From Pseudobutyrivibrio sp. YE44 (GTDB lineage: Bacteria > Bacillota > Clostridia > Lachnospirales > Lachnospiraceae): a DNA stretch of 51,238 bases. The notes under the pieces were generated by a model that was not told the origin of the DNA, did not search any database, and worked only from the letters and a program-made list of their open reading frames with translations. Positions 1 to 1,561 of the stretch are shown here, one piece after another. A program made the position numbers and the translations under genes. Location of the stretch: the NCBI RefSeq assembly GCF_900104335.1, contig NZ_FMXT01000016.1:1-51238 (forward strand), written 5' to 3'. Position 1 is the stretch's first letter. The number at the start of each line of letters is the position of its first letter.

Positions 1-95
1 ACAGACAGACAGACAGACAGACAGACAGACAGACAGACAGACAGACAGACAGACAGACAGACAGACAGACAGACAGACAGACAGACAGACAGACA
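1..95 (+). repeat. (ACAG)n tetranucleotide tract, 23.75 copies, in frame
   Basis: The unit ACAG is repeated perfectly 23 times plus ACA. The tract is open in all three forward frames and encodes the same tetrapeptide, Q-T-D-R in the frame that joins the downstream protein. Only that frame continues after the tract. The other two meet TAA at 99-101 and TAG at 127-129, so gain or loss of one unit would truncate the protein. Four-base coding tracts of this kind mediate slipped-strand phase variation, as in Haemophilus lgtC. The window begins inside the tract, so the copy number is a minimum and may reflect an assembly edge. Confidence 0.95.
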
Positions 96-1561
96 TTCTA
101 ATAGCCATATTTTTAGGCTTATTCTATAGCTTTTTTTGTTTGGCAGTATCCCCATTGATAAATAGATTAAATAATGACGGACAAGTTTATTATTTAATGG
201 GGCTGGGAATAAAAAAAGGATCTATACCATATCTGGATTTATTCGATAATAAGGGTATATATTTATATTTCATAAACACGATTGCCAGTTTAATATCTGA
301 AAAATTATCTGTAGGACTATTTTTAGTAGAAGCTGCATTTATAATGGCAGATATTTACGTAGTTTTGCAGATTGCAAGATATTATATGGACAGCATATAT
401 TCACGTTTGGTATGTGCGATGCTCTTTATGTGTTTGGCACTAAATTACTTTACATTTGATGGTGGAGGTAATTTAGTGGAGGAATATGCCCTGTTTCCGC
501 AATTAATTTCAATATTCTTAATAATATGTTTTATTAAAGGTAATTACAATAATAGACATATGTTTTTTCAGGGAATTCTATGCAGTTTCTCATTCTTTAT
601 CAAGCCAAGTTTAATTATGTTTTGGGGTGGAGTATTAGTTATAGTAATACTTCTATTAAAAAAACGTTTTTACAAGCAATCATGTATTTCAATCGGTAGT
701 GGAATAATTGGATTGATGGTGGGTGCTTTACCAGCGTATATTTATGGACGTTTTACAGGTTGCTGGGACGCAATGATTGAAGCAATAGTAATGTTTAACT
801 ATAGATATTCTAGTGCAGAGGGCGAAAGTCTAATAAAGAAAATATTTTCTGTAATTTTAAATTGGAGAATGGGTGGTTTGTTTATACTTACCATTGCTTC
901 GTTCATCATCGTTTACAAAAGTAAGAATATAGAGATGCTTCTGATTTATGTCACTTCATTGGTTTTAGAAGTGATTAGCATCAGCTTATCTGGATATAGT
1001 TTTGGACATTACTATGAAGGTATGATTGTGTTTACACTACCTTCGTTAGTTTGGATAAGTAAAAAAATATATATAAAAAAAAGCATTGTTATAGCGATAG
1101 CAGTTGCAGGAATACTCTGTAATGGAAAGTTACTGATAAAGATACTTGATGATTATGGAATAATCAGAACAATTAGCTACGATGATATGAACTTCATGGC
1201 GAAATGTGCAAATTTAAAACAGCAGAATTACAATGATTCAAGTGTTTTGGTGGTGACAGGAACGGGAAACTGCCAAGGAGCTAAATATTACACAGCAATG
1301 AATGTTATGCCGGATAACAAGTATTTTTATACACTTAAGATTCCGTATGAAGAACTCCCTGATTCTGTGGATGCTATAGCAAATGCAACTTATAGTGGCA
1401 AATATGATGTTTTAGTTATGTATTACATATATAAAGATAAGTCAAAGATGTGGGGGGTTGATAAATACGATAGTGGGCTAAGAGAGTTCTTAAATGAGAA
1501 CTATGAATTATGTATAGAGAACGAAGTGTTGCCCTTAGAAATGTGGGTGAAAAAAAAGTAG
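2..1561 (+). CDS. Polytopic GT-C-like glycosyltransferase, 5' end outside window
   Basis: This is a multi-pass membrane protein of which at least 520 codons are visible. An internal TTG at 140 could be mistaken for the start. The frame is open upstream through the ACAG tract, and a hydrophobic segment (I-L-I-A-I-F-L-G-L-F at about 95-124) follows the repeat directly, so the real start lies before the window. After the first membrane helix comes N-N-D-G-Q-V-Y-Y, an acidic first-loop arrangement like that of GT-C transferases using polyprenyl-phosphate sugars (GT39/ArnT-like). About nine further hydrophobic segments follow, then a soluble C-terminal domain of about 110 residues. Substrate is unknown. 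The next gene starts 17 bp downstream in the same operon. The repeat-coded N-terminus should be cytoplasmic. Confidence 0.75.
   Translation, partial: QTDRQTDRQTDRQTDRQTDRQTDRQTDRQTDILIAIFLGLFYSFFCLAVSPLINRLNNDGQVYYLMGLGIKKGSIPYLDLFDNKGIYLYFINTIASLISEKLSVGLFLVEAAFIMADIYVVLQIARYYMDSIYSRLVCAMLFMCLALNYFTFDGGGNLVEEYALFPQLISIFLIICFIKGNYNNRHMFFQGILCSFSFFIKPSLIMFWGGVLVIVILLLKKRFYKQSCISIGSGIIGLMVGALPAYIYGRFTGCWDAMIEAIVMFNYRYSSAEGESLIKKIFSVILNWRMGGLFILTIASFIIVYKSKNIEMLLIYVTSLVLEVISISLSGYSFGHYYEGMIVFTLPSLVWISKKIYIKKSIVIAIAVAGILCNGKLLIKILDDYGIIRTISYDDMNFMAKCANLKQQNYNDSSVLVVTGTGNCQGAKYYTAMNVMPDNKYFYTLKIPYEELPDSVDAIANATYSGKYDVLVMYYIYKDKSKMWGVDKYDSGLREFLNENYELCIENEVLPLEMWVKKK

Follow-up and report, generated by a model that had tools for sequence, protein, structure and literature searches.

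The (GACA)n tract at the first base of the window, the whole 51,238-bp stretch of Pseudobutyrivibrio sp. YE44 analysed here, very probably acts as a translational on/off switch for a putative membrane glycosyltransferase gene. Slippage of the tract would make this a phase-variable, tetranucleotide contingency locus of a known kind. Similar tracts recur in relatives, where a sigma-A-type promoter-like pair is aimed into the repeat and its -10 box typically ends 3 nt short of it; this pair (P2) appears to be a new recurrent feature of such loci.

The perfect ACAG run occupies positions 1–95 of the forward strand (TRF score 190, 100% matches), which is far beyond chance. The window is the entire contig C24 of a genome assembled in 28 contigs (3.24 Mb), its position 1 is the first base of that contig, and the tract abuts the contig edge. 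The 3' end of contig C12 carries the identical type of tract in exactly its last 95 bases. Runs of at least five units occur at these two places and at no third place in the genome, and when 600 bases were read at each of the 56 contig ends, a simple repeat was found at the same two. Both ends are compatible in strand and phase, and we infer that C12 and C24 are joined across the tract, positions 1–95 being the last 95 bp of a contingency tract that continues onto the end of C12.

The length of 95 nt is itself informative. The overlap is exactly 95 nt at four further pairs of contig ends of the assembly, which makes 95 very probably the k-mer length of the (de Bruijn) assembler; the remaining end overlaps listed measure 145 and 20 nt or come from shared terminal repeats and from two short contigs that match themselves uninformatively. 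When a tract exceeds k, it forms a loop in the de Bruijn graph, which leaves k bases on either side, and the apparent 23.75 units are therefore an artefact rather than the tract length. Because the C12 copy starts with GACA and the C24 copy finishes with GACA, the true length is 4n, and n is probably at least 25, as needed for the assembly to break there. The first-pass annotation had described at least 23.75 perfect in-frame units; the perfection of the run and the open frame through it stand, while the figure of 23.75 reflects the k-mer length. That the tract as a whole is an assembly artefact or an adaptor is scarcely credible. It does lie at a contig edge, with a visible length equal to the k inferred from other ends, but its two flanks are dissimilar to each other and such tracts also occur inside long contigs of other genomes, one of them labelled as complete (L175). 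The artefact affects the copy number alone, and the existence of the tract is real.

The flank on C12 reads AACAGGGAGTAGTA-ATG-AGTATAATCTT-(GACA)n and carries a Shine-Dalgarno sequence (SD, AGGGAG) and, 14 nt ahead of the tract, an ATG. From this start a protein of the form MSIIL(TDRQ)n, followed by a GT-C-like membrane protein, is predicted. The frame through the tract runs without interruption from base 2 as far as the stop codon at 1559–1561, and a frame scan confirmed that the other two frames close at 99–101 and 127–129 (forward strand), both within 34 nt, as the first-pass annotation had stated. That annotation also proposed finding the missing 5' end with an in-frame start, which C12 supplies through the inferred join, and held that exclusive use of a downstream start with its own ribosome site would refute a switch. 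The first in-frame ATG, GTG, or TTG 3' of the tract is the TTG at 140, which falls within the first helix and is preceded by no visible SD. With an SD and ATG before the tract and a poor start after it, the protein should therefore be read through the tract. By arithmetic, the gene is ON when n = 2 modulo 3 (26, 29, 32 ...) and otherwise OFF, the stop at 99–101 being reached when n = 1 modulo 3 and that at 127–129 when n = 0 modulo 3. The locus thus combines a long perfect tract inside an ORF, a unit that is not a multiple of 3, an upstream SD and ATG (by the inferred join), and closed alternative frames.

In the model we propose, translation would begin at the ATG 14 nt before the tract, pass through (GACA)n as TDRQ repeats, and continue into the GT-C-like membrane protein. 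Slipped-strand mispairing would alter n, a one-unit slip would turn the gene off, and translation in the OFF phases would end at one of the two early stops. Cells of one population would then differ in a single step of a sialic-acid-like surface glycan. The contig join, slippage at this particular locus, and the glycan step are all inferred from sequence.

The rest of the tract-bearing ORF (92–1561, forward strand) encodes a 489-aa putative glycosyltransferase (P0001), a multi-pass membrane protein, as judged by eye, whose first helix starts directly after the tract. P0001 itself has no Pfam or NCBIfam family match, and its assignment as GT-C-like comes from homologues. Matches occur in 7 of 80 genomes, its own included, the eight others lying in 6 of 79 genomes with 23–29% identity over the matched part. 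When P0001 and six homologues were aligned, PMT_2 matched two of the seven members (best 2.8e-6) and the NCBIfam LA_3751/LA_3752 putative glycosyltransferase model matched four (best 1.1e-7). D29, invariant in all seven, is a candidate for the acidic residue that forms the GT-C catalytic site in the first extracytoplasmic loop. The six aligned homologues have 9–26 residues ahead of the residue that matches the first post-tract residue of P0001, so no membrane segment is missing and the repeats replace an N-terminal tail. The earlier description of a membrane glycosyltransferase therefore holds as to the multi-pass membrane protein, and its enzymatic label comes through the homologues (PMT_2, NCBIfam) rather than through a family match of P0001 itself. 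A P0001 profile matched no solved structure in the PDB at E values up to 1, a single-sequence AlphaFold fold was useless (pLDDT 37), and an orthologue search in the 79 other genomes did not find the C12–C24 gene pair elsewhere.

The genes on both sides of the tract suggest, by their families, a nonulosonic-acid-type surface-glycan locus. On C12, the same strand encodes glycosyltransferase 2, polysialyltransferase-like, NeuB, UDP-GlcNAc 2-epimerase, deacetylase, formyltransferase, cytidylyltransferase, and Acyl_transf_3 proteins. In the window, also on the forward strand, the tract ORF is followed by a second large membrane protein with no Pfam match (1578–3140) and by a GT87-like membrane glycosyltransferase (3244–4401) whose score of 23.3 bits falls short of the 25 that Pfam requires. 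Glycosyltransferase-2 proteins are also present, and a family scan placed nonulosonic-acid-type genes at 13191–18485 (forward strand, ORF 14405 left out), comprising a DegT aminotransferase (13191), a second cytidylyltransferase (15286), a class-III aminotransferase (16103), and a second NeuB (17451). These families bear out the glycan part of the earlier suggestion of a Lachnospiraceae glycan operon, but the tract gene does not head the locus as had been proposed. An acyltransferase gene on the same strand of C12 stops 145 nt 5' of the ATG of the tract ORF. The gene after the tract ORF carries its own ribosome-binding site (AAAAAGGG plus ATG, 1565–1580, forward strand) and so need not be translationally coupled to it. 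Translations also show regulator-like, ATPase-like, and toxin-antitoxin-like small genes within the glycan region (24868–26535, 34722–40356, and 43477–45091), perhaps a defence or mobile patch.

At least six GACA units were found in 8 of 61 genomes in the search of relatives, and at least five units beginning with G in 27 of the 397 family genomes, the present genome being included in both counts. The same search in the class of a Paraburkholderia genome found one in 369, the central genome itself, and other tetranucleotides taken as controls gave 0 of 130 (AACG), 0 of 200 (CAAT), and 5 of 200 genomes (GCAA). The tracts of relatives occur in three settings: leaders of surface-protein genes, ORFs that span the tract, and hsdS genes between the recognition domains. 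Six genes downstream of leader tracts were scanned and gave LRR_5, Cna_B/SpaA, Ig-like, LysM/beta-helix, DUF6273, or M28 matches. Among four scanned tract-spanning ORFs, the setting to which the window gene belongs, three matched Acyl_transf_3, and the fourth is a sensor kinase that also has a solute-binding domain. The number of units differs between near-identical flanks: 6.25 and 13.25 at 100% identity, 5, 13, and 9 at 99–100%, and 25.75 and 4.5 at 91–94%.

The promoter-like pair was assessed in a set not selected for it, comprising 42 tracts from the search of relatives and from 30 of the 34 places of the family search. One tract (L065) lacked an upstream flank and was dropped, and the remaining 41 fell into 24 groups once near-identical flanks were merged; four of the 24 are hsdS groups and thus related. 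An exact TTGACA lies 24–28 nt before the tract in 15 groups and a 5-of-6 match in 17, compared with 0–2 of 24 in six control bins at the 5-of-6 level. A -35/-10 pair with 16–18 nt spacing, ending 0–9 nt before the tract and scoring at least 9/12, is present in 21 of 24 groups versus 4.1% of shuffles; the three that score lower are L073, L078, and L101. The same test on the opposite side, with the pair pointing into the tract, gave 2 of 21.

A wider contig scan required TTGACA before the tract, so that counts including it are partly selected; it returned at least 118 stretches in at least 80 loci. Among the matches listed, the last 46 nt contain the pair in 67 of 72 non-hsdS and 15 of 17 hsdS flanks, versus 9% of shuffles, and the spacers are mostly 17 nt. 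Where the scan pattern could be satisfied without a -35 box, TTGACA still lies at 24–28 nt in 15 of 29 and at no other distance up to 60 nt, again among the matches listed. The pair is present at 0 of 8 short GACA runs (11–17 nt) and at 7 of 99 short runs of other tetranucleotides. Tract length does not follow promoter score among the 105 tracts listed from this partly selected set (Spearman -0.05, p = 0.58), and the idea that promoter score sets tract length was accordingly rejected.

At the locus itself, the pair on C12 reads TTGTAA-18-TATAAT (10/12) and lies within the ORF, so that the tract would start at the predicted transcription start of P2. Taken alone this site is not above chance, with 7 sites found in the C12 flank and 7.8 expected, and it therefore leans on the rule seen across the family.

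Translation signals accompany the pair in the wider, partly selected set. Among the matches listed, an SD-like GGG/AGG lies just 5' of the -35 box in 59% of 64 tract promoters versus 6% of 31 other strong promoters; an ATG occurs in the last 32 nt of 56 of 72 non-hsdS flanks, and in 53 of these 56 it is open into the tract, where 29.7 would be expected from shifted frames. A second upstream promoter (P1), scoring at least 10/12 with its -10 box ending 40–120 nt before the tract, is found in 31% of 68 flanks listed in this partly selected set versus 3% of shuffles. From this arrangement, translation of the tract probably relies on P1 transcripts, and P2 would overlap the start of the ORF and fire into the repeat. 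On the other side of the tract, a terminator test is passed by 24 of the 80 downstream flanks listed from the wider set versus 40 of 400 shuffled ones, and a loose CTGYCC-plus-T-run pattern is present in 26 of 80, a few of them unrelated (for example, the hsdS locus L163).

The pair is not confined to GACA or to one protein. Other tracts of 3–9-nt units (at least 18 nt, longer for longer units) in the collected loci also follow a -35/-10 pair, the exception being the coding repeat L238; the units are TTGC in G087, AAGC in G154, CAAG in G030, and, in an hsdS gene, one of 7 nt. Two further GCAA-class genomes agree by eye. All six GCAA-class tracts whose left flank could be read (L269, L270, L271, L340, L341, and L345, of which L341 and L345 are near-identical copies in one genome) start just after a -35/-10-like pair. 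Five of them have TTGACA as the -35 box and L270 has TTGATA; the -10 boxes of L340, L341, and L345 are poor by eye. Since other repeat units share the architecture, the sequence of the RNA seems not to matter, and a GACA-specific RNA or telomerase-like origin (the DRT10 idea) was rejected for the same reason.

In hsdS genes the -35 box falls in the codons of a conserved LLTF. These codons include TTGACA in 12 of 13 tract-bearing copies, one with a 7-nt unit, versus 0 of 14 tract-less copies (Fisher 7e-7), which suggests that the -35 box goes with the tract and not with the protein. The comparison began from 46 matches, of which 18 without a Y-R-D...LLTF-type reading were dropped and L305 was left out; within the tract-less set, G175:C11 was judged from the printed match alone, L308 reads LFTF, and several motifs are C-terminal rather than central copies. 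An inherited promoter-tract cassette was rejected as the whole explanation, as spacers differ and the hsdS -35 box lies in coding sequence. In L305 (G175:C1), a frame resembling hsdS has a run of seven G directly behind an LLTF codon pair that reads TTGACC, possibly a homopolymer switch like that of NgoAV.

Several readings of the tract and its promoter compete with frame switching. An ordinary N-terminal repeat, in which n varies little or any length is tolerated via frameshifting, would fit the fact that this locus is known from one genome assembly alone. We consider this very improbable, as two of three phases reach stops within 34 nt, the run is perfect over at least 95 bp, and tracts of relatives whose flanks are 99–100% identical differ in n by 4 to 8 units. 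The tract might instead be mainly a leader or transcription element, with P2 starting an RNA whose 5' end is (GACA)n and n tuning that RNA or the downstream operon, so that the frame effect is secondary. The P2-like scores in 21 of 24 unselected groups, against 4.1% of shuffles, and the terminator and CTGYCC-plus-T-run signals among the downstream flanks listed speak for this reading. It is nevertheless improbable: no CTGYCC-plus-T-run or terminator-like motif was read after the tract in the window, ATGs show selection for a frame that stays open into the tract, the hsdS tracts sit in the middle of the gene, the architecture is common to other repeat units, and P2 of this locus alone does not exceed chance.

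Somewhat less improbable, though still unlikely, is that P2 drives phase-independent transcription of downstream genes, so that an OFF frame does not silence the operon. P2 aims downstream in all three settings, the next gene in the window has its own ribosome-binding site, and P1 is also enriched among the flanks listed; yet this leaves unexplained why the promoter ends at the start of the repeat and why terminator-like motifs stand right after some tracts. Because P2 accompanies the tract across genes and repeat units, we favour a role in the behaviour of the tract itself. We tentatively suggest that P2 within the ORF may serve clostridial contingency loci as a built-in cis-acting mutator, RNA polymerase initiation repeatedly opening the repeat and raising slippage for any unit or gene; at present this is a possibility rather than the expected outcome. 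Points for it are the asymmetry between the two sides of the tract, the lack of the pair at short GACA runs, its presence at GCAA-, CTTG-, and 7-nt-unit tracts, and the hsdS comparison. Against it, tracts with higher promoter scores do not have a higher n.

Most known cases of tetranucleotide tracts that drive phase variation come from Gram-negative bacteria of mucosal surfaces. The 5' leader of Moraxella catarrhalis uspA2 contains tetranucleotide repeats, and the H. influenzae contingency genes include lic, lgtC, lex2, and mod, the lgtC product being a soluble GT8 enzyme. As in uspA2, the repeats of some relatives lie in the leader of an adhesin-like gene; unlike uspA2, such a leader often contributes its own SD, an ATG whose frame stays open into the repeats, and a promoter-like pair that stops where they begin, and some loci carry a terminator-like motif behind the tract. 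The first-pass annotation had compared the window gene to Haemophilus lgtC, which is apt for the tract and the closed frames and does not extend to enzyme homology, the product here being a multi-pass membrane protein with no Pfam match. In the tetranucleotide contingency genes of H. influenzae (PMC2651432, a text that does not name lgtC), as here, the tract lies close to the 5' end of a gene for a surface-glycan enzyme, other frames contain stops, and the GACA unit gives a hydrophilic peptide without net charge. The present locus differs in belonging to a Gram-positive commensal family, in its GT-C-like membrane enzyme, and apparently in the promoter-like pair abutting the tract inside the ORF.

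According to PMC7394358, 7.9% of hsdS genes carry simple sequence repeats and NgoAV is made in full-length or truncated form (for phase-variable hsdS such as NgoAV, see also PMC9577141). The hsdS tracts of relatives resemble these in lying between two recognition halves, where the frame sets a full-length or truncated subunit, and differ in using (GACA)n, once a 7-nt unit, instead of poly-G, and apparently in the -35/-10 motif at fixed spacing before the tract. Searches at the level of titles and abstract openings, covering clostridial and Lachnospiraceae tracts, GACA repeats, repeats with an internal promoter at the transcription start, transcription and slippage, and type I systems, did not find this arrangement among the entries listed. 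Clostridial hsdS tracts may already appear in a survey of type I systems.

These loci point to a recurrent tetranucleotide contingency system in Lachnospiraceae and other Clostridia, which are major gut commensals. As the tracts touch surface sugars, adhesin-like proteins, and DNA-modification specificity, a single gut strain may therefore be a mixed population. Tracts that begin at a promoter start also make it testable whether a cell can use transcription to control how fast one particular locus mutates. Tract length beyond k would further account for the way short-read assemblies break such genes at contig ends, where they easily escape notice.

Several further observations concern the tracts of relatives. 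L102 (G442) and L103 (G392), from genomes labelled as different genera, have identical 400-nt flanks on both sides with n differing by 7 units, and are likely a recently moved element. One tract-bearing surface-protein gene occurs in three genera (L106, L107, and L108, in G242, G171, and G265), with flanks 99–100% identical and n = 5, 13, and 9, respectively. The L107 copy is shorter (357 versus 703 codons), and the gene after it looks like an Erm-type rRNA methyltransferase. L067 (G033:C14, approximately 2993–3825) has two tract copies in opposite orientation that lie some 700 bp from each other and have near-identical flanks, which could be an invertible or a misassembled segment. L110 (G435:C5) and L195 are two nearby tracts in one genome, one shown as 46.5 units, with Ns between them.
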